A DNA stretch of 63,903 nt from a virus. The DNA lies in IMG/VR virus record IMGVR_UViG_3300042898_001199, positions 1-63,903 of that record; one strand, 5' to 3'. The notes beneath the pieces are model-generated. The model did not search any database. It was not told the DNA's origin and saw only the letters and a list, made by a program, of their open reading frames with translations. Position 1 is the stretch's first letter. Every line of letters begins with the position of its first letter. Positions 3,243 through 30,527 of this stretch are shown here, piece by piece. The position numbers were made by a program, and so were the translations under genes.

Positions 3243-3256
3243 TATCGGTAACACAC

Positions 3257-3318
3257 TGAAACGCTTGGAGAGGTCTGCTCGTGAGAGAGGCTTTGGGGTT
3301 CGACTCCCCACGTTTCGC
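3257..3318 (+). ncRNA. tRNA-like minihelix (acceptor + T arm) in operon leader
   Basis: TGAAACG (3257-3263) pairs over 7 bp (one G-U) with CGTTTCG (3311-3317). Directly inside its 3' strand lies a perfect T arm: TGGGG, loop TTCGACT, CCCCA (3294-3310). The 31 nt between (3264-3293) start CTTGGAGAGG, like a D-loop, but form no anticodon stem that I can find, so it is not a normal tRNA. A CCA occurs at 3322-3324, three bases off the usual place. The acceptor/T-stem stack is the shape recognised by RNase P and RNase Z. It ends 21 nt before the first gene of the operon. Confidence 0.55.
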
Positions 3319-3339
3319 TAACCAATTAATACACACACT

Positions 3340-3699
3340 ATGTACAAAATTGCATTTCATCTAGCACGAGGAGTTCACTTCATGCATTGGCAAATTAAGG
3401 GAGATAACGGAGAGGTAATCTACGTTAACCCTAACGAGAGTGACATTGTTATTCACGGATGTAAACTGAAGAACCAAAGGAGTACCTCACTCAAGATTCA
3501 CCAAGGCGGTGACAAGTTCAGATGTGCTTGGGTTCAATTCGATTCATTCGAGATTGTGCCACTATCTAACTACACGTCAAAGACTCAAGTTCGTTTCAAT
3601 CCGAGGGTTAAACCTACGTGGGTTGTAGGAGGTGTTGACGAGCAGGACAACAGAGAGTTCAACGTCCTTTACACTAACCGTTCACAGCTATTTGCATAA
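3340..3699 (+). CDS. Hypothetical protein, first gene of left operon
   Basis: 119 residues, beta-rich with basic and aromatic residues; no recognised family. ATG at 3340 follows an A-rich leader without Shine-Dalgarno, as for most genes here. Its TAA stop (3697-3699) is immediately followed by the first base of a hammerhead ribozyme, so the 3' end of this coding segment would be set by self-cleavage at 3746. Confidence 0.7.
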   Translation: MYKIAFHLARGVHFMHWQIKGDNGEVIYVNPNESDIVIHGCKLKNQRSTSLKIHQGGDKFRCAWVQFDSFEIVPLSNYTSKTQVRFNPRVKPTWVVGGVDEQDNREFNVLYTNRSQLFA

Positions 3700-3752
3700 G
3701 GTTTACTGAAGAGAGTTTAATACTCGAAACGGGGGTTATCCCCGTCTAAACC
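3700..3752 (+). ncRNA. Hammerhead ribozyme 1 (type I)
   Basis: All conserved parts are present. Stem I is GGTTTA (3700-3705) with TAAACC (3747-3752). The core CTGAAGA spans 3706-3712. Stem II is GAGT (3713-3716) with ACTC (3722-3725), loop TTAAT. GAAA lies at 3726-3729. Stem III is CGGGG (3730-3734) with CCCCG (3740-3744), loop GTTAT. The cleavage triplet GTC ends at 3746, so the cut is between 3746 and 3747. The open end at stem I makes it type I. It starts right after the stop codon of the upstream gene. No internal loop is visible in stem I, so the usual loop-loop contact may be weak. Confidence 0.9.
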
Positions 3753-3771
3753 AATTTAAATCAATAATGCC

Positions 3772-3879
3772 ATGGAGACTAAAATCTTAAGAATCGAGGG
3801 GAACTTTGAAGTAATCGGGTTCTTCATCAACGGAGTATTAGTACGCACTACGAAGAGACGTGTATACTCTTGGAACTAA
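3772..3879 (+). CDS. Very small hypothetical protein (35 aa)
   Basis: ATG at 3772 in the context AATGCCATGG. The product has the pattern NFEVIGFFINGVLV followed by a basic TTKRRV tail, probably a small beta-hairpin. It is the first gene downstream of ribozyme 1. No family recognised. Confidence 0.5.
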   Translation: METKILRIEGNFEVIGFFINGVLVRTTKRRVYSWN

Positions 3880-3906
3880 AACATTAATCATCTAATACCA
3901 ATTGCC

Positions 3907-4062
3907 ATGAACTCAAATCAGAAAACCATCAACAGCCTGTCTTTACTAGGTATCGCAGGAGGACTTCTTCTAGTGAGCTTGAGCATGACCTTCTTTGGAG
4001 GAGTGTTCATCACACTATTCACCTTATCATTGACAGCTAACCTGCTGTTGCCACAACACTAA
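3907..4062 (+). CDS. Small two-helix membrane protein (51 aa)
   Basis: After a short polar N-terminus (MNSNQKTINS) residues about 11-47 are almost wholly hydrophobic with Gly-Gly turns, consistent with two membrane helices. It is the middle gene of the segment between the two ribozymes. Small phage membrane proteins can act as holins or exclusion factors; nothing here decides it. Confidence 0.55.
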   Translation: MNSNQKTINSLSLLGIAGGLLLVSLSMTFFGGVFITLFTLSLTANLLLPQH

Positions 4063-4082
4063 CCAATAAATACATAGAAAAC

Positions 4083-4412
4083 ATGAACGTATTACAATTG
4101 AACATTGGGCTGAATAACAACCCTTACAGCCCTGAGGAAGTTACTCGACTACTTACTACATACTTTGACGGATTAGTGGGAGTCAGAGAACACATGGGCG
4201 AGTGGGAGGGTGAGCCTGAGCCAACGATGGTTGTTAAGATTGTTGTTGACATGGAGTATACCGATGCTTACATCATGGTCTCAACAATGGCTAGCAACTT
4301 CACTCAAGACTGCATCGCAATGAAGTTCAACGATAAAGGAACTTTGGTTTATAATGTCGATTACGAGGGGAACCCATTCGACTTCAGCGATGAATATTTC
4401 ATCGAGTTCTAG
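4083..4412 (+). CDS. Hypothetical acidic protein (109 aa)
   Basis: An acidic protein with a mixed alpha/beta pattern (EEVTRLLTTYFDGLVGVRE, then MVVKIVVDMEYTDAYIMVS). No family recognised. Its TAG stop (4410-4412) shares its last base with stem I of ribozyme 2, so the ribozyme begins exactly at the end of the gene, as for ribozyme 1. Confidence 0.7.
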   Translation: MNVLQLNIGLNNNPYSPEEVTRLLTTYFDGLVGVREHMGEWEGEPEPTMVVKIVVDMEYTDAYIMVSTMASNFTQDCIAMKFNDKGTLVYNVDYEGNPFDFSDEYFIEF

Positions 4413-4471
4413 GTTAACTGATGAGTCCTGAGTGGACGAAACGTGAGGCTCTCCAGCCTCATGTCTTAACC
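4412..4471 (+). ncRNA. Hammerhead ribozyme 2 (type I)
   Basis: Stem I is GGTTAA (4412-4417) with TTAACC (4466-4471). The core CTGATGA spans 4418-4424. Stem II is GTCC (4425-4428) with GGAC (4434-4437), loop TGAGT. GAAA lies at 4438-4441. Stem III is an 8-bp helix CGTGAGGC (4442-4449) with GCCTCATG (4456-4463), one G-U pair, loop TCTCCA. The GTC triplet ends at 4465, so the cut is between 4465 and 4466. Compared with ribozyme 1 all three stems differ in sequence yet stay paired, which is covariation support within this one genome. Confidence 0.93.
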
Positions 4472-4485
4472 AAATAATTATTGCC

Positions 4486-4722
4486 ATGAATACTGAAGAA
4501 CAACTGAAAAAAAGGCTTGCCCTTATTGAGGATGACTTGCGAGTAATTCGAGAGTTCATCTACATCCAAGGTTTGACATCGGAGTTCGAGAAATCGACCC
4601 CGTATTCTGACGAGGCTTGGGTTCACCTGAACAACATCGACATTGCATGTGACCTAAGCGATGACGAGTGCCTGACTTGGAAAACATTTACAAACTTTAA
4701 CGAACAAACTAGACCGCTATGA
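4486..4722 (+). CDS. Hypothetical acidic protein (78 aa)
   Basis: The N-terminal half (residues 1-30) is a charged amphipathic helix (EEQLKKRLALIEDDLRVIRE) and the rest is acidic. It is the first gene after ribozyme 2 and its stop overlaps the next start (ATGA). No family recognised. Confidence 0.65.
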   Translation: MNTEEQLKKRLALIEDDLRVIREFIYIQGLTSEFEKSTPYSDEAWVHLNNIDIACDLSDDECLTWKTFTNFNEQTRPL

Positions 4723-5000
4723 GCAGAATCACCAAACTTCAGAAGCAGATTGCCGATGCACACATCAGAGCAAATCGAGAGGGTTCATTCACTAACTTGA
4801 AAGTAAATTCAAAAGAGGAATTTCACCAAGCCTTGGAGAGAGGTGAGACCTACGAAATAGTCTACAAAGAAATTGTATACAGATACGCCTCGATGACTAG
4901 CCTGATAATGGCTAATGTACTAGACCACGAGAGCAAGGCTTACACACAGGCTGTGTACAAAGGATTTAAAAACGTGCTTAATTCAATCGATGTAAAATGA
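4719..5000 (+). CDS. Hypothetical protein (93 aa)
   Basis: Overlaps its neighbours by ATGA at both ends, so it is translationally coupled within the operon. Basic helical N-terminus (SRITKLQKQIADAHIRANRE), otherwise mixed. Function unknown. Confidence 0.65.
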   Translation: MSRITKLQKQIADAHIRANREGSFTNLKVNSKEEFHQALERGETYEIVYKEIVYRYASMTSLIMANVLDHESKAYTQAVYKGFKNVLNSIDVK

Positions 5001-5209
5001 AACCGAGTTACCACAACATGAAGCTACCCATGATTAAGGGAGCAATAACCTTCCCCTGTAGGGCTAAGGTAGAACTACGCATTCAGGTATACGGAAGAGT
5101 GGTAGTGAGTGAGGTGAACTTCAGCAATGAGGTTCACGTTATGAACTACACGAAACTGATGTACCGCAAGATGATGGACGTACTGACAATTGAAAAACTT
5201 AATAACTAA
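4997..5209 (+). CDS. Hypothetical basic protein (70 aa)
   Basis: Coupled to the upstream gene by ATGA overlap. The middle alternates hydrophobic and polar residues (KVELRIQVYGRVVVSEV), suggesting a small beta sheet. No family recognised. Confidence 0.6.
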   Translation: MKPSYHNMKLPMIKGAITFPCRAKVELRIQVYGRVVVSEVNFSNEVHVMNYTKLMYRKMMDVLTIEKLNN

Positions 5210-5222
5210 TAAATACACACAC

Positions 5223-5429
5223 ATGAACATTGACACACTAATCGCATACGAGTCAGGGGAACTGAACGATGCCGATACTATAACCTTCTTTGCAGACCTT
5301 GTTAAAACCAAGATGGCTTGGAGTCTTCAGGGAAGTTACGGACGCATGGCTTCAGCCATGATTGATGCAGGGTTTATCTCTCCTGAGGGAGAGGTGACCG
5401 AGTTAGCAGAAGAAACCTTTAATAATTAA
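5223..5429 (+). CDS. Conserved small phage protein (YESGEL / LQGSYGRMA type)
   Basis: 68 residues from ATG 5223; an upstream TTG in frame is less likely because the sequence MNIDTLIAYESGEL is the usual N-terminus of this family. It carries the signature WSLQGSYGRMASAMIDAGFI. I recall this small protein in many unrelated tailed phages, usually in early regions, without known function. Confidence 0.75.
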   Translation: MNIDTLIAYESGELNDADTITFFADLVKTKMAWSLQGSYGRMASAMIDAGFISPEGEVTELAEETFNN

Positions 5430-5433
5430 TACA

Positions 5434-5661
5434 ATGGAAAAACTATTCAAACAATTAGTGGGGAAAAAAATCGCCAGTCTCCGTTACATGACCAAGGGCG
5501 AGTGCGAGGCACTAGGGTTCCACAAGAGTTCGATAATCATTCGACTAGACGATGGCACATGGCTCATCCCAATTGCAGATGATGAGATGAATGACGGAGG
5601 TTCTCTGTACACGATAGGCAAAGGGGAGGAAAATATAATACCAACAACGTACACCACATGA
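5434..5661 (+). CDS. Hypothetical protein (75 aa)
   Basis: Starts 4 nt after the previous stop and overlaps the next start by ATGA. The sequence has a compact pattern with GKKIASLRYM and SSIIIRLDDGTWLIPIADDE, a small beta-rich fold. I recall similar short early phage proteins. Function unknown. Confidence 0.65.
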   Translation: MEKLFKQLVGKKIASLRYMTKGECEALGFHKSSIIIRLDDGTWLIPIADDEMNDGGSLYTIGKGEENIIPTTYTT

Positions 5662-5822
5662 AGACTAAAAGATATATCCTGACATTGCTCAATGAAACGG
5701 GAGGAGTAATTGACGCGAGAATATTTTACGCACTCAGTAGAGTGGATGCACTCGAGCAGGCAAAACTGTTCATGAATTTTCAAAATCTTAAACTTAAATT
5801 TAAACTAAACCTTTTTAAATAA
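5658..5822 (+). CDS. Small basic protein (54 aa)
   Basis: ATG overlaps the previous stop (ATGA). The product is Lys-rich with a helical, hydrophobic C-terminus (FQNLKLKFKLNLFK). No family recognised; coupling to neighbours supports it being real. Confidence 0.55.
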   Translation: MKTKRYILTLLNETGGVIDARIFYALSRVDALEQAKLFMNFQNLKLKFKLNLFK

Positions 5823-5830
5823 TAAACACC

Positions 5831-6316
5831 ATGAAATACACAACACAAGAAGGCTTCAATTGGGAGATTGTAAGCAAGGAAAGAGCAATTGCATTACTTC
5901 AGGCAGGTGCAGAGGTCTACAAGGTATACGATGACGAGAGTGAATCTCTTATTGACTTGGAAGATGAATTATGGGACGTTTCCGGACTCATGTTCTACGC
6001 CATCGATGGAAACACTGCAAGGATTTTTCAGAAACAAGCACCGAGGAAATGGGCGAGGGTTGACACTGCGACTGGCAAAGGAATGAACGAGGGTTTCTGC
6101 GTAGGTGAGGGTGACGCTTACTTCGAGGAAGAGGCTGACCTGATTAAGTACCTGAGAGGGCTGAATGAAGAGGGGAACAAGGAGTTGTCTGATGACTTCA
6201 TTCTTGCCGAGGCTTACGCTTTGGAAGAGTATTACTACACAGAGTGGGACGTTGAAGACAGCGACTATTACTACGAGGAACAAGCGGACGGAACACTAAT
6301 AGAAATTAACCTTTAA
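5831..6316 (+). CDS. Acidic hypothetical protein (161 aa)
   Basis: Strongly acidic in its C-terminal half with clustered Tyr (EEYYYTEWDVEDSDYYYEEQ). Acidic, Tyr-rich early phage proteins can mimic DNA, but the size and pattern alone do not show it. Starts after the leader AATAAACACC without a Shine-Dalgarno site. Confidence 0.65.
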   Translation: MKYTTQEGFNWEIVSKERAIALLQAGAEVYKVYDDESESLIDLEDELWDVSGLMFYAIDGNTARIFQKQAPRKWARVDTATGKGMNEGFCVGEGDAYFEEEADLIKYLRGLNEEGNKELSDDFILAEAYALEEYYYTEWDVEDSDYYYEEQADGTLIEINL

Positions 6317-18095: not shown

Positions 18096-18127
18096 CAAAT
18101 TTACGTCATTTTGTTATTTGCTTTCAA
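18096..18127 (-). promoter_or_regulatory. Promoter of the lysis cassette, inside the giant gene
   Basis: On the minus strand TTG (18127-18125), 21-nt spacer, TAAATTTG (18103-18096). The start codon is at 18090, so the transcript would be leaderless or nearly so. The -33 box lies inside the last codons of the 4137-residue gene. Confidence 0.55.
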
Positions 18128-21100
18128 TTTTATTGTCAATAATCTTGAAATAATTAGTTTTTATAGGCTTAACATTTGTCAACTTCTTATTGTATTGATA
18201 CAAGTCGTAGTAATATCTTTCTAAAGCTTGTTGACCACCTGCCTCACTAGCTTCATACTTACTGTAATCAGTATCTGTTTCAATTGATTTAGTGATGTAA
18301 TCAGACACTTCTTGATCGTATTCCTCTTTAGAGAATCCCTCTAAGAATTTACCTAACGCAACATCATCAAGGAAAGTTAAGTTTTCAAAGTTTAACTTAG
18401 GATAATCAGCAGGATCAACATCATACTTCAACTTCTTCTTAGCGTCAAACTTTGCCTTCTCAGCTAAGAATTTAATTACCGCATATTTACCCTCATCATT
18501 TCTATCTTTCAAGGCATATCTATTATTCTTCAACTCATCTTGTATGTAGTTCTTGAACATTGATGTAGCCTCTTGAGTCAGAGCTTCAGATCTTTCTTTT
18601 CTCTTTTCTGCTGAGACAAATTTAGAGTTGTCTTGTACAGACAAAACACCTACACCGTTCTGATCAAAGTTCAACACACCAGCTACCAAGTTGTATTTAC
18701 CGTCAGATGATAAAATAACTACGTCTTGTTGAATAGCAACCTCATCTTGAAGCGACTTGATAAAGTCTCTAGAGAATGGAATTTGCTTACCATCCATAGC
18801 AAGTATTAAGTTCGTTGCCATGATCGTAGCGGAAAGCATTTTATTTAGGTCTGCTGTTTCTTCGTTGAACAATTTACCACCCTCTTCCCATAAGTCATAA
18901 ATAGTTGCCTTGTTGTGTCCTGGCTCATCAAGATAATCTTTATATAACTTTTGAGCTTCTTGCATCAACATATATACTGGAGGAACGCTAGTTGCAAATG
19001 CTAAAGCGGCATACTTTTCTACAGCATCATATTTTTCAAAGTCAATACCTTCTGTAAAATAAAGAGATTGTAGAACTTCATCAATAGGTTGTCTTTCTGC
19101 ACCTTTCATATTTCTAGCAAACTGCAATAAAGATATAGCCATCGCTCTACCAGAAGCACCGTATCTAGAGGTGGTTACATTGGCCGCTAGATTAATACCC
19201 ATAGAGGCGATCATCTTCCACATCTTGTCCGGGTTAGTAAACATTTCTAAAGTTTCTTCACCTTTTTTCTTTTCCTTGTCATCATCACTAAAGAAAGCTC
19301 TTTCAATACCTTTTACAGCAGCAAATATCACAGTATACATAGTCAAACTTGTAGCTGAAGTGGCAAATTTAAATAATCCTCTTCCTAGATCTGCTCCCTT
19401 ATTCATCCGGTCATCCTTAGTGATACCTCTTCCAGCTCTCTTAGCTCCGTAAAGCATGTTGCTAACGTCTCTGTATACAAAGTTGTTGAATAAGTTAAGC
19501 ATTTGAGCGACAGTATCATTTGATGATACAAGACCTTTACTAACGTCAGATTTGCTTCCCTTGCCTGTCAATGCCATTTTAGGTATACTAAACAAATCGG
19601 GCAACCATCTGTAGTTTGCTCTTGCCTGACCTTTGAATGAACCACCTTTAATAGATTGAATTCTCTGATCTGCAAATGAGGCAGCCCTATCTAAATCATA
19701 TTTGTAATCACTATCATCAAAATGTTTAGCTTCAGAATAATCTTCGCCAGTTAAACGCTTGAACTCTGATCTAAAATAAGACATCCATTCCCCAGGAGTT
19801 AATGGTGCTGTTAAGTTGTGCAATGAAGCGATTGAGTTTTCTAATTGCTGAGAGAAAGTATTCTTTGTAAGGTTTCCTTTCTTAGTAGTTACCTTGACCT
19901 TAAAATCCCAGTTTAAATTAGCTACAGGGCTGCCAAATTTCTCCATAAGATTTTTAGCCTCTCTGTAAGACTTGGGGTCAAAACCTCTAAGGCTTAAAGT
20001 TCTAAAAATACCAGAACCTATATTTGTTAAAGTCTCAGCTGCTGTTCTTCCAATACCAATCAAAAGTTTAGCCGCAAAAGATTTTGTCAACTTTGTTAAG
20101 AAGTTATTTGCAGATCTGCTTAATTGATGGTCAACACGATTTCTGTTTGACTGTTGAAGAGCGTTTAATGTTTTGACATCTGCATCTCTTCCTTCCGCTC
20201 TAGCCGCCTCTCTTGCGTTTTTAAACACTTCATTAACGTAAGATATTGCGTTGCTAATATAGAAATCTCGTGCAGATTCAAAGGCGTTGTTTGCCACAAG
20301 AGAATCAACATTGAATTGTAATGGCCCAGCAGGATCTTTTGACACACGACTGTAAGATGACTGAGATCTAACAGTACCTCCAACAGCACCACCATATCCA
20401 AGCTCAACATTAGAGTCTTCAGACATTCCCTTTCCAATATATCTACGAGGAGAGAAGAACTCTGTCAGCTCACCATTAACACCTCTTACAGCGTTAGCGT
20501 TGATAATTAACTCGCCAGAAGTTCTGTTGGCCTCTCTAAATGCACTGTAAAGCTTTTGCTCGCTCTCAGACATCAAAGAAGAAGGGTCGTTAAGATAAGC
20601 TTCGTATATCTTTCTATAATCTAACTTGCCGTTCGTTACAAATGCAGGGTTAGATATTAAGTTGTTGTATACGTCTTCTACGATATTCAAGACACCTTCC
20701 TCATCGTATATCGCACGCTCGATAGAATCTTCTTTTAGCTGATTGCCTAACCAGTCATTCGTATTCTCGTTATACTGATAAGCTTTATGACCTGAGTCAA
20801 GGATATGAGAGAGTATACCAACTCTGTGTTTGAAATATTTCTTAGCACTTACAGAACCTTTTGCAGTCTTAACTCTATCTTTTAAGAATAAGAATTTACG
20901 ATTTGCAAATGATAAGTCAGCAGTTTTCTTGTAGTAAGAATCTAATATCTGATTTACCTTATCGCTCATCTTCTTAAACGATCTGTCGATAGGAGCAACA
21001 ACATATTGATATAAAGCATCTCCTTCTTTCAATCCAAGAACGTCTTCCCATTGGGCAGCCTCTTCAGACGATAACTTTCTCAACAAAAGATTAACCCCTT

Positions 21101-24100
21101 TCGTTAACTTTTTATAAATATCACCTAGTTGATTTACAATTCTTAATCCAGCCTCTTGCGATCTAATCTCAACACGATTAACCATTTCACGAACTTCCTT
21201 TTCCGGCATGAAGCCGTACTCCATTCTGTCTAAAGCTTCGTTTAATTTTAACAAGTCTTTTACATCTAAGTTCATTAACTCGTTAGCAGACAAGCTTCTT
21301 AATCTTTCAAACAAGCTTTTTTGCTCACCAACAAATAAATCGTTAGTAGTAATGCTTGAAATCTTCTGGAACAAATCATCTGTCAAACCTTCTTTCAAAG
21401 TGTCAATTTGATCTTGATGATTTGCCTCATAGACTCTCAGCCCATTTTCCATAGTGTAAAGATCTCCTGAGGCCCATTGCTCGTGTGTAGCGGCATCAAT
21501 TAACCCCTGGTTATACAGCGAGTCCAAAATTCTTTTAGCCTTGTTTACAGATCTTACAAATGCGGTATACTCCTCTAGCGTGTCAATAGGCATAGACTTG
21601 ATATCTGTTAGTAGATCAAAATAATCTGCCGGCAGAAATTCTTTCTTGCCTAAATCTGCGCTAAAAGCCTTGTCAGCCAAAGACATATCTAATCCCGTAT
21701 GATCAGGAACCGGCTTTGCCAATCTAGCAACCGCGTCTAAATAACGATCCATCTCTGCATCAGTCAATAGAGGATTGTTGTCCGTGTCAAACAAAGGAAT
21801 AGATACGAATCTTAAAACATCTTCTGTAAATTCATTGTGCCTTCTCTTAAGGGCTGTCTTTCTATTAGAAGCTAAAGCATCCATTTTAGCAGCAAACTCC
21901 TTGTTAGCAACAATCTTATCAACATACTGTATGAAGTTGTCAATTTGCTTGTCTGTAAGAGATGTCACTGCACCTGTAGCTCTGTTTACAATAGCTGAAA
22001 TTTGCTGGCTATTCAACCCACTCAGTTTAGCTAATTTTAAATATTCCTTAACAAAGTATCTAAAACTATTACGTTTGTTTTTCTCGTCAGCCTTAGCTTG
22101 CTTAATATTTTCTTTTGTTTGAGATAATTCAGTTCTCAGTTCTTTTAGTTTTTCTTTTAACTTAAACACATCAGGCTTTTCATCACCTCTCTTAGCCTTA
22201 AGTTCAGCCTTGTTTATTTTATCCCACTGTGCATTTACAGCGTCTTTTAACTCGTCAACCGTAAAGAACTCCATGCCATCTCTTGTGGCATCAGCAAATG
22301 CTTTTTCTATAGCAATAGCTTTTGAAGAGTTATCCATTTCGGAATATATCTTAGCAACAGTAGCAATATCTTCAGCTAATTTATTTTTTAAGTCCCTTTC
22401 AATATTCTCCTCAAACTCTCTTTTTTTCCAAGAAGACATATCTCTAAAGCCTTTAATCTTTCTAGCTTTAGCAATCAAGTCATTTACTGTATTTAAAATA
22501 CCAGCACCTTTCCTTACCTTATCCGCAGACTCGTCAAGAAGTAAACTGTATTCCAATTTATCACTATTATTCATTTGAAGTTTAGTAGTGATGTTTTCCG
22601 ATTTGCCTGTTGAGGTTTTATTTTTCTCAGCCAATACTTCGTTAGCCTCAAACATTTCTAAAGCTGGGTTGAACTCAATAGAAGAAGGATAATCTTTATC
22701 AGGTCTCTGATAAAACTCTCCCTTCATTTTCTCAGTTGTCTCAGCTCTTAAATCTTCACCCCACTTAACAACAATCATTGGATAACCTAAATTAGCCGCT
22801 TCTTGAGCAATGAATGCAGCTTGTTTATTAGGATCAAAAGCCTGGCCTGGATACATCTTCTCAAACGTAGCTTTTGCCGCATCATATAAGTTCAATGGAT
22901 CCTCATTAAAAGGATACACATTATCTTTAGGTATTCTTACAACATAACCATATTTACCTGATACATCTAATACGTCAGGTCGAGTGTAGTACATGCTGAT
23001 ATTTAACCCCGGTCTTTCGTCTTTTCCTGTTCTTGAGGTGTTTTTACCAAAGTACTTAGGATCGATAGAAGATATTTTATTTGGAGAGTAGTGGTAGAAC
23101 AAGTAATTACCTTGGTCATCCTCGGTCATATGCTTAGTTAACTTAGCATTGTCTACTAAAGATTTAACTTGAGACTTAGACACGAAATTTTTAAATCCTT
23201 CCGTATCTTTTTTGGAACCTAATACATGAACTTGTTTATTTGAATCAACCGCTATCTGATCCATCTCTGGAGTTAGCTCGTTAAATTTCTGGTATGCAGG
23301 CAATCCGTTCTCATCAACCGGCCCAACATATTCACCTATATATGTATTATTTTCACCTTCCGTTTTAAAGTCAACATAATTATCTTTATCAAGACCCTTG
23401 TAAGCAATAATAGCGTCAGCACCGTTTGTTACTTTAGAAACAGTCAACTCTTTAAGACCTGCGTATCCTCTTCTCCAGTTGGCATCTATATCAACTACAT
23501 GAAAATTATTAACATTAAGAATTGCAGCTGAAATTCTACCTTTGCCACCACCTGTATAGTCAGCAGATTTATTTTTATTAAGTGTCCAATATAAACCCTT
23601 GCCTAAGTTCTTAGCCCCTGTACCTTTTTCAGGATCTAAGTCTTCCGCTTCAATCATATCTGAATTTTCAGATCCTCTGTAAAAGATATTTTGCAATAAA
23701 CTTTTTGGGAAAATATTTTTGAGGTACTCGGCATATTTTTCAACTGTCCCAATAGATTTTAATTCGGGATTTTGTTCAAACACTTCGTTTAAAACTGCAC
23801 GTTGAGTATCATCTATTTGAGATTTAACTTGAGCTTTATATTTTATACCAGTATTAATTCTAACTACTGAATAAGGTATATTTCTAGCTCCTGCAAAATT
23901 AGCCGCATATTCTAAATCTCTTAAAGGAGTATTATCATTTTCAATTTTTTCTGATGTTCTAACTTCACCATCTTTTACTGAAGATAAAATATCTTTATAA
24001 TTTTTCCTTTCTGATAACATATGGACAGTTACTCTTTGGCCGTCTTCTGTTTTCATTACTCCTGGATAAGAAATGTGTTTTCTTTTTTTCGCTGGAATAT

Positions 24101-27100
24101 CAGACTCGTCTTCAACAATTAATTTAGAAGGTATTTCAATATAAGCAACTGCCGATTCAATAGGAGCGTTTTCCATAAAACCTTCTTCCTGTACATTGCC
24201 TAATCTTTTAGTTGCGGCATCAACTGTTATTTTACCGCTTTTATTTAATGGGATATTTAACTTCTTAGATAAACTACTAAAGTCAATTTCATTAGATTTA
24301 AATATTTCAGCTATAATTTTCTTCCCAACATCAACTCTTTTCTTAAAGGTTTCATCGTTAGAGTTTATAAAGTAGTCTTTAATAACACTATGAAGTTCTT
24401 TTGCGCTTAATTTTCCGCTAAATAATTTGATCCCCTCATTATCTTTTTCTTCTTTAACTGCCGTATTTAAAGCATTTCTAAATACACTTAATGGTATATC
24501 ACCATCTTGAACTGCTAACTCTAAAATATCTATAGCAGCAGCCATACCATCTCGACTACTTAATACTTTTAAATCTGTTGATTTAAATACAACTACTCTC
24601 ACAGGCTTGCCTGGGTATTTGTCAAATATTTTATTTACTAAATTGATAAATGTTTTTGACATCTTAGGAGTTGAAGCCCAGAATGTACCGTCTTTATTAT
24701 ATTTAATAGCAAAGTGCAAACCTCCATTTCCTTCTAATACTACTCTCTTATCTCCTTTTTTATACTTAACGCCATCAACTTCCGTGTCTTTGTCATAAGT
24801 GCCGTAAGATAAATCTCCAACCATTTTATTATCAGGGAACATTGATATTACGACCTCACCCTCTAACTCTTCAATCTTTGCATTTTGAACTAAATACCCC
24901 TCATCTTCCAATTTTTTCAAATCAGATGCAGGTATAAGATTAGCTTCAAAATTTCCACCTAATGAATATTTTGACTTTACTTCATCAGACGTGTTAACGT
25001 TTTCAGCAAATTTATTATCAAGTTTTATTTTTTGACCATAGTAAACTTTGCTTGCAAAAGTCTGGAAGAATTCCATAATCTCTTCTGGAGAAGATGTATC
25101 GTCAATAGGCTTAAGATCAGGGCCAAAATACTTAGCAATAAGTTGGTTGATATACTCAGCAATAGACTTTAAGAAAGATTTATTAGCAGGATCAGACTCT
25201 TTTAATTGAGACAATAAAGCTGTAACCTCAGAAACATATTCCTCAGCACGCTCAACATCGCTATACTCTTCATTAGAAGCTAAATCAGCAGCGATCTCAT
25301 CTATTGATATCTCAAATGGAACGCCATCTTTATCTAAGGCTATTAGTTTTTTACCCTTAGCAAGATCTGCTATTTTATTTTTAAACTGAGCGTATAACTC
25401 AGGCTTATCTCCAAACATTTTAAACAATAGAGCGTGAGTCATCTCATGCGCTACAGTACGAAGATTAGCAGACTCTAAATTAATCGCAATAACTCCAGTT
25501 TCTTCCCCAGGAAGAATTGTGAATAAACCTCTTGAGTCAGCATTAGCACCAACAGAGTTAGCGTAATTTTTAAAATCACTTTCATTATCAAAAACAATAA
25601 TGTTAAAGTTAGGAAGCACAGACTTTAATGTTTTTAAAGCCTTGACAACTTGAGCTACTACTCTCTTCTGAGTAGGGGTCTTTGCCACTTTTGCTAACTC
25701 CTTAGCTCTGTTGTTATCAGAAACATTATATCCGGTAGTATTTGCTTGGTTTAAAATATCGTCTGTTGTAGGCTGAACGTTTTCTTCATTAGAAGTCTCT
25801 ATTTTATTGCCATCCTTATCGAGCAAAGTATCAAAGTCGTATTCTATAGCAAAGTCTACTTTCTCACCAGCTACATTCATCGTGCTGTAATTATCTCCTT
25901 GAGATTCAAACTTCTCGGCTCCCTTGATTCTAGGATGGTAAGATCCATCTTGAAATACTAATCCGTCATGGGCAGCTACAGACTCTTGATCAAATTCTAT
26001 TGCAAAAGCAACAGCGTCTTCTCTAGACAAATTAGGAACAAAGAAACTAAGTTCTGAATTACCATACTTGCCAAATGCACCGTCAGTAGAGTAACCTCTT
26101 TCTTCTAGCCAAGATTTAGCAGCCTCATTTCTTTTAGCGTTTTCTTCATCGCTAAGAGATTTTCTTTGAGGGTTCCAAGCTGTAAGAAGACCAAATACAC
26201 CGTTCTTAATCGTTTCTATAAATGAATTACGGTCAGGAAAAGAAGACTCCGGTAAATTTGCTATAGCATTCTCATCCCAAGCCTCGTCTCTAACTATTTC
26301 TGGGGTGTTGGTTTCTGTTCCTGGAGTTTGCTCAGATTTAACTTCACGCAATAGAGGGGTGATAAGAGCATCGTATTTATCATAGATAGGCTTATAGATA
26401 GCGTACAAATCATCCGGCATGCTGCCTTGTGTATCACCTTTTGTATCTGAATAATTGTCTATATCAGGTATCGCATTACGAAGATCTTCCTGTTCTCTAG
26501 CTCTTAGATCAGCTATGTCTTGATCTTTGTTTTCTTCAACAGGCTTAACCTTTTCTTCTTCATCTTTTTGTTTATTAGCCTGCTCTCTTGCTTTTAACAA
26601 TTGAGCGTTGATTAATTCTTTTGCCTTAGGTAGATTTTCTTCAACCATACCTCCAGATACTTCAGGAGCAAAGTTCACTTCTTTAACAGTGCCATCTTGA
26701 TTCATTGAATAAGAAACCACACCTAGCTCAGAAAGAGAATTAACGAGAACGTCTGACGATTGTCTTCTCTTTTGATCAGCATTAAATGCAGTTAATATCT
26801 TATTATCTAATTCTTCAATTTTTGCAGTAGACTCCACGTCAACTATGCCTAATTTTTCAGCTTCTTTAGTCGCTTGAACTAGTTTGCCTTTTTGAATGTA
26901 TAGGTCTAAAATCTCAGCCTTGGCCAAGTCTCCAGCTTTCTTAAAAGGAATTACTCTTTCTAACTCTTTATAAGTATTGTTAACCTTTTGGAAGTCCTTA
27001 TACTGATCAGTTTCTTTTACATCGGCATTTCTCTTTTCAGCTTGAGCTAAAATTTCCTTGCCGTTTTTACCAACCTCTAATTGCATGAATTTCAAACCAG

Positions 27101-30100
27101 CAGTCTTATCAGTTTTTTCTGAAATAACTTCTGCGGTAGTTGCTATAGATGCGCTAGCTGTTCCGATTAAAGCCCCGATGGCCCCTTGAACTAAAACTTC
27201 TTTAGCCGCCTCAGGAAGAGTGTCATTTTTAATTTCTGCTAAATTCATGATTGTAGACTCTACAACACCAGAAGTTATCTCTTCCCCAGCTTCTTTTGTA
27301 CCTTGAGAGAACACTTTAAACCCAGCATTTCTAGTTATTTCGTATGCGTTTGCAAGAAGTGCCTTGGAAATTTGTTGAGCAGATAAACCATCAGCTAATC
27401 CTCTAGAAATGATTTGAGCTGAATTCTTTTTAATAGTAATTCCCACAGCGTCCGGAAGTTCAGGTACTAAAGCTTCAATAGAAGCTAGTGTGCCTGCTGT
27501 CAAGGTTCCGTACAACATTGCTAATCCTTTGTCATACCCAGCGTCTTCAAATTGCTTAACCATATCTCCTTCCATTACAAGGAAGTTATATGTAATAACT
27601 CCTGCTGCGCCAAAAGACATGGATGCTCCTACATTATACACTAGATTTGGCACTTGAGATATAGCGTTGCTATACCACCACATTCCACTATACTCTTCTA
27701 AATAAGGATTGACAGCCATTTCTGACCATCTTGTTTTTCTAAACTGAGTATTTTGCATATTTGCATCTACCTCGTCCCAAGTATTACTATCATCTGTAAA
27801 CACAGATTCAATAACATTATACGTTTGAATAAAACCTTCCCCAATATTTTTATTTGCAGTGAAAATAGTTTTCACTGTTGATTCAAGAATATTATCCTCT
27901 TTAGCACTTTTTTTCAAATAAGCGTTCCACTCGTCTTCTTTTAATTTTGCAGCGGAATATGCTCCTGAATATCCGCCACCAGAAACTACAGAATATTGAG
28001 GGTTTTCACGAAGATTAATATCTAAATTGTCAATAGTATATTTAATTGATTTTAAATCAGCAAAACCTTTATCTTTAGACACGATATTCAACTTAGAACT
28101 TAAAAAAGCAATCTCTTCGTAATCTTCTTTATGATCATCATAAAACTTTTGAAGCTTACCAGCGTCTCCACCAAGTGACTTGCTAGACTCAACTATCTTA
28201 TTTCTTTCTTCTATTAATTGTTTTTGTTTAGCGAGAATCTCGTTAACCTTATCAGAATTCTCATTTTTAATATAAGATTCTCCCTTTTCATTTTTGTCTA
28301 AATAGGGTTGAAGTTCGCCTTCTAACTTATCTAATTGATTTATTTTTTGATTAACTAAATCTAATAATTCTTGAGCTTTATTTTTATCAACACCATCCTT
28401 AAGGTGCAATCCATCTTCTTGAACATCATAATACTGTTCAATCTCTTTAGATATTTCCTGAACCTCTGTATTAAGTTTTGTTAAATCCTCAGAAATCTTC
28501 GCAGCTTTTGCCGATCCGTCAGTAGATTTCAAAATAATCTGATTGTCAACAACATCGGCATATTGAGCTAGCTCAGTTTCTGTTTCTTTAATGGATTTAT
28601 CAAAGTTTGAAATAAGCTCATTGTTTTTCTTAATCTCTTGTAGGTTAATATCTAATTCAGATTTATCTATATCTAATTTAGATTCTTCATCTGCAATTTT
28701 ACTATTTAAATTTTCTAATCTTCGAGAGTCTTTATCAGCAGTTCTCAAAGCACCAGATGATTTCAAGTCATCCGTCTTTAAATATGCAGATGCACTATAA
28801 AAAGATGTTACATCATTTAAAGCAGATCTTCTAATATTCATAGCCCATTGAGCATCTGCTTGAAAACCTTTATCCATTTCACCATACCCTCTTCCGGCAA
28901 CATTGTTTTCATGAATTTGCTTCATGTGATCAAGATCCTCTTGCTTAAACTTACCAGTCTCAATACCTTTTTCGATGTATTTTAAATCCATGTAATAAGC
29001 AACGTCCTCGTTCAATTTATTGTAAAGATCATCAGCAGCTTTAGCTTTTGCCTGTGCTTCTAATTCCTTAACTTTTGCAAAATCATATTCAATCGGATTG
29101 CCAAATTGATCTACCTCTGGCAACTTAACATTCTGAACGTATTCAGAGTTTGCAATTAAGCGTTTTAAGTCATTTTGATTGCCAATTAAAAACTCTTTTG
29201 GAGAGATGCCCATGCCACTCAATATTTGAGCAGATTCAGACACATTTATATTGTTGAAGAAATCTTCGTCAATTTTATCAACATGTGCGTTGTTAGTAAC
29301 TATTTGCTCTGCACTCTCTCTATTTTTTCTTTTATTAATACCAGCAAAGAAAGTTCCTTCTCCAGGACGGCCAAGTATACCTCCAAGAATGTTAAACTTG
29401 CCGTCTAAAGATTTAGCTTGAGTTTTTTGGACTTCCTTGTTTTTCTTGATCGTGCCTCTAAGAACATCCATAAATGTTTTAGGAGCATTCTCGTCAGCTG
29501 TAGCTACTACTTCCTGCTCTCCCATCAAACCTTCAATGGTTCCTAAGTTATATTGCCCTTGGTGTTTAGTCAAGGCCAAGTCTACAAGAGCTGTAGCGGA
29601 GTTTTCATCCCATTCGGGATTACTAGCTCTAATCTCTTCCTTAAGTTTAGTTTCTTCCTCAGCACTCATGCCGTGAAATAAAGAAACTGTTTTTCTATTA
29701 AGGTCATTCCACGCATCATCATTACCAGTGTAATTACGAATAGTAGAAGAAGATTTTTTGATATAATCATTATAAACAGCGTCACCCACTTGGCCTGTGT
29801 AGTTATTTGCTGTTTTTTTAGCTTTAGTTACATAATCTTTTGAGTAATCGCTTTCTTCATTTTCAGAGAAGTATACAATTTCATAAGTGCCATCTGCATT
29901 ATCCTTATACCCCAATATCTGATCAACTCCATATTCAGGACCTTGATCTACACTCGGGTCGTTTTTTCTTGCAAATGAAAATTTCTTTTGCTTTTCCTTT
30001 TTTTTTCTGCCTGGTTTTTCCGGGTCATCAACTTCTATATCTTCCTCCACAACTTCTGGCTCTTCAAAAAATCCTCCCCCTGTTGATTGGGAAAGTAAAT

Positions 30101-30527
30101 TACTAGCTTTAGATCGAAGATCCTTTAAGTCAGAAGCATCCTGCATGAAGTTCTGTGGTGCTGGGGCAGCAAATGTCTGCGTAGGCTCAGTTGGCGCAGG
30201 CTCACCTGCACTATCTATAACAGAACCCTGCTGAGTATCAGCAGAAACCTGACCGGTTGCTTCTGTAGTCTCTAATGGCTGATCTGTAGGCTGAGATAAT
30301 TCTTCCTCTCCAACCTCTTTTTTTTTTCCAGAAATCAGATTTTCAAAATCCGACAGAGTTTGTACACGCAAATGTTCTGGAGCGTCAGATGAAAACTTCA
30401 AAACCTTGGCAATTCTTGTCTTATAGACATCGTTGCTTGATAATAAAGTATCAAATTCTTCTTTGTCAGAATTAATCTTACCATTTGTTTTCAAATACGA
30501 ATACAATTCTTCTGTTTCTAAAGCCAT
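18114..30527 (-). CDS. Giant polyvalent protein (4137 aa) with zincin and ART-like domains
   Basis: One uninterrupted frame, about 19% of the genome. About 1-350 is acidic and Gln/Pro-rich; about 600-900 is coiled coil. About 950-1130 has long hydrophobic stretches (ASMSFGAAGVITYNFLVMEG; LVQGAIGALIGTASASIATT) that could cross a membrane. HEMTH at 1694-1698 with a later Glu near 1746 (DEIAADL) is a zincin metallopeptidase. Two ADP-ribosyltransferase-like segments begin FYRGS (2282) and FYHYS (2477). Coiled coil follows to about 3000. About 3470-4000 resembles the LPD38-type C-terminus of polyvalent phage proteins. This set fits polyvalent proteins injected with phage DNA to act on host defences. 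The gene lies among internal virion proteins, so it is probably packaged. Confidence 0.85.
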   Translation of the reverse strand: MALETEELYSYLKTNGKINSDKEEFDTLLSSNDVYKTRIAKVLKFSSDAPEHLRVQTLSDFENLISGKKKEVGEEELSQPTDQPLETTEATGQVSADTQQGSVIDSAGEPAPTEPTQTFAAPAPQNFMQDASDLKDLRSKASNLLSQSTGGGFFEEPEVVEEDIEVDDPEKPGRKKKEKQKKFSFARKNDPSVDQGPEYGVDQILGYKDNADGTYEIVYFSENEESDYSKDYVTKAKKTANNYTGQVGDAVYNDYIKKSSSTIRNYTGNDDAWNDLNRKTVSLFHGMSAEEETKLKEEIRASNPEWDENSATALVDLALTKHQGQYNLGTIEGLMGEQEVVATADENAPKTFMDVLRGTIKKNKEVQKTQAKSLDGKFNILGGILGRPGEGTFFAGINKRKNRESAEQIVTNNAHVDKIDEDFFNNINVSESAQILSGMGISPKEFLIGNQNDLKRLIANSEYVQNVKLPEVDQFGNPIEYDFAKVKELEAQAKAKAADDLYNKLNEDVAYYMDLKYIEKGIETGKFKQEDLDHMKQIHENNVAGRGYGEMDKGFQADAQWAMNIRRSALNDVTSFYSASAYLKTDDLKSSGALRTADKDSRRLENLNSKIADEESKLDIDKSELDINLQEIKKNNELISNFDKSIKETETELAQYADVVDNQIILKSTDGSAKAAKISEDLTKLNTEVQEISKEIEQYYDVQEDGLHLKDGVDKNKAQELLDLVNQKINQLDKLEGELQPYLDKNEKGESYIKNENSDKVNEILAKQKQLIEERNKIVESSKSLGGDAGKLQKFYDDHKEDYEEIAFLSSKLNIVSKDKGFADLKSIKYTIDNLDINLRENPQYSVVSGGGYSGAYSAAKLKEDEWNAYLKKSAKEDNILESTVKTIFTANKNIGEGFIQTYNVIESVFTDDSNTWDEVDANMQNTQFRKTRWSEMAVNPYLEEYSGMWWYSNAISQVPNLVYNVGASMSFGAAGVITYNFLVMEGDMVKQFEDAGYDKGLAMLYGTLTAGTLASIEALVPELPDAVGITIKKNSAQIISRGLADGLSAQQISKALLANAYEITRNAGFKVFSQGTKEAGEEITSGVVESTIMNLAEIKNDTLPEAAKEVLVQGAIGALIGTASASIATTAEVISEKTDKTAGLKFMQLEVGKNGKEILAQAEKRNADVKETDQYKDFQKVNNTYKELERVIPFKKAGDLAKAEILDLYIQKGKLVQATKEAEKLGIVDVESTAKIEELDNKILTAFNADQKRRQSSDVLVNSLSELGVVSYSMNQDGTVKEVNFAPEVSGGMVEENLPKAKELINAQLLKAREQANKQKDEEEKVKPVEENKDQDIADLRAREQEDLRNAIPDIDNYSDTKGDTQGSMPDDLYAIYKPIYDKYDALITPLLREVKSEQTPGTETNTPEIVRDEAWDENAIANLPESSFPDRNSFIETIKNGVFGLLTAWNPQRKSLSDEENAKRNEAAKSWLEERGYSTDGAFGKYGNSELSFFVPNLSREDAVAFAIEFDQESVAAHDGLVFQDGSYHPRIKGAEKFESQGDNYSTMNVAGEKVDFAIEYDFDTLLDKDGNKIETSNEENVQPTTDDILNQANTTGYNVSDNNRAKELAKVAKTPTQKRVVAQVVKALKTLKSVLPNFNIIVFDNESDFKNYANSVGANADSRGLFTILPGEETGVIAINLESANLRTVAHEMTHALLFKMFGDKPELYAQFKNKIADLAKGKKLIALDKDGVPFEISIDEIAADLASNEEYSDVERAEEYVSEVTALLSQLKESDPANKSFLKSIAEYINQLIAKYFGPDLKPIDDTSSPEEIMEFFQTFASKVYYGQKIKLDNKFAENVNTSDEVKSKYSLGGNFEANLIPASDLKKLEDEGYLVQNAKIEELEGEVVISMFPDNKMVGDLSYGTYDKDTEVDGVKYKKGDKRVVLEGNGGLHFAIKYNKDGTFWASTPKMSKTFINLVNKIFDKYPGKPVRVVVFKSTDLKVLSSRDGMAAAIDILELAVQDGDIPLSVFRNALNTAVKEEKDNEGIKLFSGKLSAKELHSVIKDYFINSNDETFKKRVDVGKKIIAEIFKSNEIDFSSLSKKLNIPLNKSGKITVDAATKRLGNVQEEGFMENAPIESAVAYIEIPSKLIVEDESDIPAKKRKHISYPGVMKTEDGQRVTVHMLSERKNYKDILSSVKDGEVRTSEKIENDNTPLRDLEYAANFAGARNIPYSVVRINTGIKYKAQVKSQIDDTQRAVLNEVFEQNPELKSIGTVEKYAEYLKNIFPKSLLQNIFYRGSENSDMIEAEDLDPEKGTGAKNLGKGLYWTLNKNKSADYTGGGKGRISAAILNVNNFHVVDIDANWRRGYAGLKELTVSKVTNGADAIIAYKGLDKDNYVDFKTEGENNTYIGEYVGPVDENGLPAYQKFNELTPEMDQIAVDSNKQVHVLGSKKDTEGFKNFVSKSQVKSLVDNAKLTKHMTEDDQGNYLFYHYSPNKISSIDPKYFGKNTSRTGKDERPGLNISMYYTRPDVLDVSGKYGYVVRIPKDNVYPFNEDPLNLYDAAKATFEKMYPGQAFDPNKQAAFIAQEAANLGYPMIVVKWGEDLRAETTEKMKGEFYQRPDKDYPSSIEFNPALEMFEANEVLAEKNKTSTGKSENITTKLQMNNSDKLEYSLLLDESADKVRKGAGILNTVNDLIAKARKIKGFRDMSSWKKREFEENIERDLKNKLAEDIATVAKIYSEMDNSSKAIAIEKAFADATRDGMEFFTVDELKDAVNAQWDKINKAELKAKRGDEKPDVFKLKEKLKELRTELSQTKENIKQAKADEKNKRNSFRYFVKEYLKLAKLSGLNSQQISAIVNRATGAVTSLTDKQIDNFIQYVDKIVANKEFAAKMDALASNRKTALKRRHNEFTEDVLRFVSIPLFDTDNNPLLTDAEMDRYLDAVARLAKPVPDHTGLDMSLADKAFSADLGKKEFLPADYFDLLTDIKSMPIDTLEEYTAFVRSVNKAKRILDSLYNQGLIDAATHEQWASGDLYTMENGLRVYEANHQDQIDTLKEGLTDDLFQKISSITTNDLFVGEQKSLFERLRSLSANELMNLDVKDLLKLNEALDRMEYGFMPEKEVREMVNRVEIRSQEAGLRIVNQLGDIYKKLTKGVNLLLRKLSSEEAAQWEDVLGLKEGDALYQYVVAPIDRSFKKMSDKVNQILDSYYKKTADLSFANRKFLFLKDRVKTAKGSVSAKKYFKHRVGILSHILDSGHKAYQYNENTNDWLGNQLKEDSIERAIYDEEGVLNIVEDVYNNLISNPAFVTNGKLDYRKIYEAYLNDPSSLMSESEQKLYSAFREANRTSGELIINANAVRGVNGELTEFFSPRRYIGKGMSEDSNVELGYGGAVGGTVRSQSSYSRVSKDPAGPLQFNVDSLVANNAFESARDFYISNAISYVNEVFKNAREAARAEGRDADVKTLNALQQSNRNRVDHQLSRSANNFLTKLTKSFAAKLLIGIGRTAAETLTNIGSGIFRTLSLRGFDPKSYREAKNLMEKFGSPVANLNWDFKVKVTTKKGNLTKNTFSQQLENSIASLHNLTAPLTPGEWMSYFRSEFKRLTGEDYSEAKHFDDSDYKYDLDRAASFADQRIQSIKGGSFKGQARANYRWLPDLFSIPKMALTGKGSKSDVSKGLVSSNDTVAQMLNLFNNFVYRDVSNMLYGAKRAGRGITKDDRMNKGADLGRGLFKFATSATSLTMYTVIFAAVKGIERAFFSDDDKEKKKGEETLEMFTNPDKMWKMIASMGINLAANVTTSRYGASGRAMAISLLQFARNMKGAERQPIDEVLQSLYFTEGIDFEKYDAVEKYAALAFATSVPPVYMLMQEAQKLYKDYLDEPGHNKATIYDLWEEGGKLFNEETADLNKMLSATIMATNLILAMDGKQIPFSRDFIKSLQDEVAIQQDVVILSSDGKYNLVAGVLNFDQNGVGVLSVQDNSKFVSAEKRKERSEALTQEATSMFKNYIQDELKNNRYALKDRNDEGKYAVIKFLAEKAKFDAKKKLKYDVDPADYPKLNFENLTFLDDVALGKFLEGFSKEEYDQEVSDYITKSIETDTDYSKYEASEAGGQQALERYYYDLYQYNKKLTNVKPIKTNYFKIIDNKIESK

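Follow-up and report, generated by a model that had tools for sequence, protein, structure and literature searches.

A hammerhead ribozyme subtype at phage gene junctions, overlapping upstream stop codons and probably acting in mRNA processing

The window analyzed here is a 63,903-base IMG/VR virus record, IMGVR_UViG_3300042898_001199, which encodes a phage-like terminase and portal. The terminase matches those of Flavobacterium, Cellulophaga, Tenacibaculum, and Maribacter phages at <60% identity, and the virus is flavophage-like. The element under study, ribozyme 2, is a predicted self-cleaving hammerhead ribozyme at positions 4412..4471 of the plus strand. It is located between two short open reading frames on the same strand, one of 109 amino acids (4083..4412) with no Pfam match and one of 78 amino acids (4486..4722). 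A further hammerhead, ribozyme 1 (3700..3752, +; predicted cleavage at 3746|3747), lies 660 nt away. It abuts the TAA codon (3697-3699) of a 119-amino-acid gene (3340..3699, +) having a sub-threshold Pfam match to Phage_L5_gp82, and is followed by a 35-amino-acid gene (3772..3879, +) that is conserved in the related phages G001 and G021. The region 3300-6300 gave no match to phages in blastn searches. All contigs used are fragments, and all gene frames are predictions.

Ribozyme 2 has the type I topology, in which stem I is open and stems II and III are capped. The 5' strand of stem I, GGTTAA (4412..4417), pairs with TTAACC (4466..4471), which would form the 5' end of the downstream product after cleavage. 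The hammerhead core, CUGANGA followed by GAAA and an NUH cleavage triplet, occupies 4418-4465. Its components are the catalytic CUGAUGA (CTGATGA in the DNA; 4418..4424), GAAA (4438..4441; G12, A13, A14, and A15.1), and a GTC triplet ending at C17 (4465), which places the predicted self-cleavage site at 4465|4466. Stem II (4425..4437) has the arms GTCC (4425-4428) and GGAC (4434-4437) and a TGAGT loop of the UNANU class, and stem III is a hairpin with a closed loop (4441..4464). Cleavage would leave a 20-nt leader (4466..4485) on the downstream mRNA. An initial annotation of this DNA had placed stem I, the core, stem II, and the cut at the positions found here. Its stem III was also present, but has 10 bp with A15.1-U16.1 and the C-G pair that follows included, not the 8 bp originally given. 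Its comparison of the two window copies held, with stems II and III differing at most base pairs and stem I at one.

In isolation, the 60 nt of ribozyme 2 are predicted to fold exactly as the hammerhead (-23 kcal/mol, z -3.6), and ribozyme 1 is likewise predicted to adopt this fold. A covariance model (R1), trained on 30 hammerheads from other phages and containing no window sequences, scored ribozyme 1 at 63.3 bits (E 3e-12) and ribozyme 2 at 60.9 bits (E 1.2e-11) over 506 kb. The R1 scan identified no third copy in the window. A strict hammerhead filter gave 172 matches in 2.04 Mb of fetched loci, a count enriched by the choice of these loci for relatedness or by hammerhead pattern; codon-block-shuffled sequence (2.00 Mb) gave no match. 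Rfam reported nothing for the window at gathering threshold, and its whole-window E-value mode returned only unrelated weak matches. Short-window mode gave sub-threshold matches to RAGATH-1-hammerhead (RF03152; 22.4 and 21.2 bits versus a gathering threshold of 56.3), and neither window copy reaches the gathering threshold of any Rfam hammerhead family (RF03152, RF00008, or others). No hammerhead was reported by Rfam in 13 other loci from the hammerhead scans, at least most of which bear one. The phage hammerhead subtype is missed by Rfam 15 at its thresholds.

The limits of this subtype were established by scanning IMG/VR and all fetched loci, and totals of copies and junctions from IMG/VR are lower bounds. 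The first pattern, AGGTTAACTGANGAGNNNTNANTNNNCGAAAC, covers the 5' half only and leaves stem II, stem III, and the 3' strand free. It recovered at least 146 distinct copies, and all 146 also contained stem III, the 3' strand of stem I, and an A after that strand. Stem II was fully paired in 143 of the 146, with 30 combinations of arms (shuffles: mean 20.7, maximum 32), and the first five pairs of stem III were intact in 140 (shuffles: 13.6). Orthologous copies in related phages stay paired despite a changed stem II, and orthologous or neighboring copies in G005, G008, G020, and G021 have altered stems that still pair. Stems II and III covary strongly and all three helices are present. The initial annotation had proposed selection on structure, and retention of pairing with varied arms and in re-paired orthologs bears this out; conservation of sequence without pairing was looked for, and the opposite was seen.

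The flanks of stem I and the first base of loop II are almost as constrained. When the A before stem I was exchanged for any other base, a single stretch was found in the whole collection (versus at least 120 with A), and when U1 of loop II was replaced there were none (versus at least 120 with U1); the remaining letters of UNANU were part of the search patterns and so were fixed by the search. Among the matches listed in a scan with no constraint on stem I were 107 new copies, of which 106 could be parsed. Each of the 106 had a stem I of exactly 6 bp followed by A, and 105 had A before it. The subtype is A-[6 bp]-CUGANGA-[4 bp, UNANU]-GAA-[stem III]-H-[6 bp]-A. The preceding A is retained in 28 of 33 copies that have no stop codon there (background 32%), and it is therefore structural; where a stop codon provides this A, it does so incidentally. 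The near-invariance of both flanking As and of U1 is consistent with a tertiary contact between the stem I region and loop II, and the two As and loop II may form the contact needed by natural hammerheads.

Two observations weigh against the mRNA-processing role considered below. In its native context of 90-140 nt, the hammerhead makes up 1-17% of the ensemble predicted without tertiary contacts. The cause is a competing pairing within window 4395-4425, in which the last bases of the upstream gene (TTTCATCGAGTT) bind AACTGATGA. A terminating ribosome would cover this competing segment. In addition, G021 has homologs of both genes flanking ribozyme 2 with no ribozyme between them, and the ribozyme is therefore dispensable there. 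The alternative fold would suit a chance match or a degenerate, inactive relic. Such an origin is highly improbable given the E value of 1.2e-11, the absence of matches in shuffled sequence, the intact core, and the covarying orthologs. Separately, ribozyme-free leaders at window 3320-3340 and 4059-4082, and at 5349-5372 in G021, look like the leftover 3' part of a ribozyme (TAACCAA..., TGAACCAAATAA) and are possible scars of lost hammerheads.

The upstream gene of ribozyme 2 ends in a TAG codon (4410..4412, +) whose last base, G4412, opens stem I and whose A4411 is the near-invariant flanking A. This sharing of a base was remarked on in the initial annotation and proved to be general. In a set of at least 232 distinct junctions from IMG/VR, with the stop defined as the end of the longest upstream frame of at least 40 codons, 204 had the stop within -10..+25 of the first base of stem I, compared with ~10% at control AG sites (set 2). 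The contact is not peculiar to the window locus. The main stop positions were 0 (24 junctions), +1 (29; the register of the window), +4 (10), +6 inside stem I (52), +10, where the codon is the UGA of CUGANGA (41), and +20 in loop II (10). The stop uses ribozyme bases in 144 of the 232 junctions and is wholly inside the ribozyme in 115. In set 2 the TAA at +6 and UGA at +10 are present by construction; the observation is that coding frames run on uninterrupted until they reach these codons. The one frame in which the ribozyme offers no early stop is used less than the other two (28 versus 91 and 85, p 1.9e-8). Upstream frames include ArdC-like and DUF932 proteins, so real genes end in the ribozyme in this way. 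As a pattern query in IMG/VR, the 109-amino-acid protein returned no relative; homologs did appear in the fetched loci. Several precede hammerheads, with the stop in register +10, +6, +1, 0, or -2, and others do not; most of these loci were fetched by hammerhead patterns, which biases the ribozyme-bearing share.

Part of the contact is explained by the requirement of stem I for a preceding A, which TAA, TGA, and TA|G all supply, and genome compaction alone could be a source of the overlap. The geometry is also consistent with the coupling of translation and cleavage suggested in the initial annotation. A terminating ribosome would sit on stem I and the core, so that cleavage would have to wait until few or no ribosomes are translating the upstream gene, and the ribozyme would sense that translation. 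Contact in 204 junctions, use of ribozyme bases in 144 and of the core UGA in 41, avoidance of the frame lacking an early stop, and the tendency of the 109-amino-acid family to keep a ribozyme behind the gene while the stop register shifts all favor such gating. Compaction and the structural A predict a similar overlap, and ~12% of junctions have no such stop, so on balance we regard gating as doubtful, if possible. The same tentative standing applies to its wider form, in which ribozyme bases (UAA of stem I, UGA of the core, UNA of loop II) serve as the stop of the preceding gene, terminating ribosomes and cleavage compete, and a translation-gated self-cutting junction recurs across many phages. 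Translation gating is a serious, unproven extension of the mRNA-processing function considered below. A literature search found no description of stop codons inside phage hammerheads; preprints were outside its scope, so an earlier description is possible.

On the downstream side, the next ATG follows the predicted cut by a median of 23 nt (interquartile range 21-27), and the intervening leader is 55% A. A same-strand ATG was found within 40 nt in 130 of 134 cases (control, 42). At nearby junctions without a ribozyme the genes overlap in 33% of cases, and the median gap is 6 nt; ribozyme junctions are therefore of a different, separated kind, and the ribozyme separates the translation regions of the two genes. 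Cleavage is predicted to make the start region more accessible (0.69, compared with 0.63 before the cut), a weak change that is partly an effect of length. The flanking genes are diverse, with 177 upstream and 186 downstream clusters among ~230 junctions.

The fold, the covariation, the near-invariant features of the subtype, and the fixed placement of the stop and the next ATG are established by the present analysis. We consider it likely that ribozyme 2 is a self-cleaving hammerhead whose role is to process polycistronic phage mRNA where two genes meet. After transcription of the junction, its RNA would fold and cut itself 3' of stem III. The upstream message would keep its stop codon and the whole ribozyme body, whose hairpins would give it a structured 3' terminus bearing a 2',3'-cyclic phosphate. 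On the other side of the cut, the downstream message would acquire a defined, short, A-rich leader with a 5'-OH (20 nt in the window, median 23 nt in the set) and would no longer be tied to the upstream gene, and in this way a long message would be split into gene-sized ones. Cleavage and these end groups are expected by analogy, from the established chemistry of hammerheads and from experiments on other phage copies: tandem phage hammerheads cleaved in vitro, and one set also in Escherichia coli (Perreault 2011, PMC3088659). The purpose would presumably be separate stability and translation for each gene.

Comparison with relatives raised the question of other roles. G001 is near-identical to the window phage, but the two genes between the ribozymes are gone and its ribozyme 2 is a hybrid with an intact fold. 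The 5' half derives from another hammerhead with different upstream sequence, and the 3' half, from CGAAACGTGAGG on, is identical to the window; this is a clear-cut case of natural exchange inside the core. Such an event would fit if the conserved core served mainly as homology for swapping gene cassettes, with cleavage secondary. We consider this improbable, since the covariation, the flanking As, and the loop II motif all require an RNA with a function, and ribozyme junctions across the collection are not more shuffled than their neighbors (both flanks homologous in 13.8%, versus 11.7% for ribozyme-free neighboring junctions). A recombination hotspot, as suggested by G001, was accordingly not supported in general. 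Paired ribozymes might instead excise the RNA between them and circularize or ligate it, as in retrozymes, and the two window copies 660 nt apart and the several copies per contig in some phages would be compatible with this. Many loci show one copy, however, and the G001 breakpoint falls within the core instead of at the cleavage site, which rules it out as a reverse-transcribed splice product. Spliced or circular products of phage hammerheads were sought and none were found (Perreault 2011, PMC3088659). Excision thus appears slightly less probable still than the recombination role.

Related copies are present in cultured phages. In Flavobacterium phage elemoA_13-1B (MT497087), R1 identified a copy at 27357-27416 (-; E 5.5e-9), behind a short frame (~21 codons) that ends in TAG with the G shared; the copy lies ~22 nt before the next ATG. 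The region is present in 68 records of Flavobacterium phages elemoA-F. In MT497087.1, a CDS (phanotate43; 27343-27450, +) annotated across the ribozyme on the opposite strand is probably spurious. Agrobacterium phage OLIVR1 carries another hammerhead copy. Among 84,980 bacterial and archaeal genomes, none contained the narrow pattern ACTGANGAGTCCTNANTGGACGAAAC, and a broad hammerhead pattern was frequent in contigs of Patescibacteria, Paenibacillus, Arthrospira, and Thaumarchaeota (L317-L396). In four IMG/VR phages (L140, L144, L145, and L091) the predicted hammerhead cut coincides with the exact 5' end of a tRNA, with the 3' strand of stem I forming the acceptor strand; three are tRNA-Tyr(GUA) at offset 0 and one is tRNA-His with one extra 5' G. 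The arrangement suggests tRNA 5' ends made by a ribozyme without RNase P in these phages. Another phage carries a twister-P3 ribozyme above the Rfam threshold (L204:174-241), ~370 nt upstream of its hammerhead.

Elsewhere in the window, a T arm resembling that of a tRNA or tmRNA (GGGGTTCGACTCCCC) at 3256-3328 has possible acceptor pairing and ...ACCA; ARAGORN makes no call, and its 3' end coincides with a breakpoint of gene gain or loss in G021. The window phage also has a phosphoadenosine phosphosulfate reductase family gene (1331-2122, -) and an open reading frame of 4,137 amino acids (18114-30527, -), which is very large for a 64-kb phage.

The reason for phage hammerheads has been in question since 2011, and a 2023 paper still called the reason for associations between ribozymes and phage genes unknown (PMC10085705). 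The present analysis gives a definition of a subtype that Rfam lacks at its thresholds and a geometric rule, with a stop in or at the ribozyme and an ATG ~23 nt past the cut. Hundreds of phage junctions are alike in this respect, and this suggests a simple device, built into the RNA, that would cut a long message into gene-sized ones. The cultured elemoA-F group makes both the function and its coupling to translation directly testable.

In the available passages of Perreault 2011 (PMC3088659), clustered hammerheads flank prophage genes and processing into gene-length mRNAs is proposed. The copies described here belong with those hammerheads, having the same core and several same-strand copies per phage between genes; those passages are silent on a single subtype (6-bp stem I between As, UNANU loop), a fixed ATG distance, and stop overlap. 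Processing of mRNA by phage hammerheads has thus been proposed since 2011, and the present analysis adds the subtype definition and the layout of stop and ATG. The best Rfam match, RAGATH-1-hammerhead, has ACUGAUGAG...CGAAAC and a stem I that is likewise short and open, but the window copies differ from it in their flanks and loop II and fall short of its gathering threshold. Unlike retrozyme-type circular RNA elements, where paired ribozymes bound one repeated, transposed unit, the phage copies have diverse flanking genes. RiboJ insulators are engineered from a hammerhead of a plant virus satellite RNA and, placed in the 5' leader, trim mRNA to a standard leader; the phage hammerhead would also trim a leader, but it is natural and sits where one gene follows another, in contact with the upstream stop or containing it. 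In the early genes of phage T7, cuts by RNase III at junctions turn a long transcript into single-gene messages with hairpin 3' ends. Those sites need a host protein, whereas the phage hammerhead RNA would cut itself.
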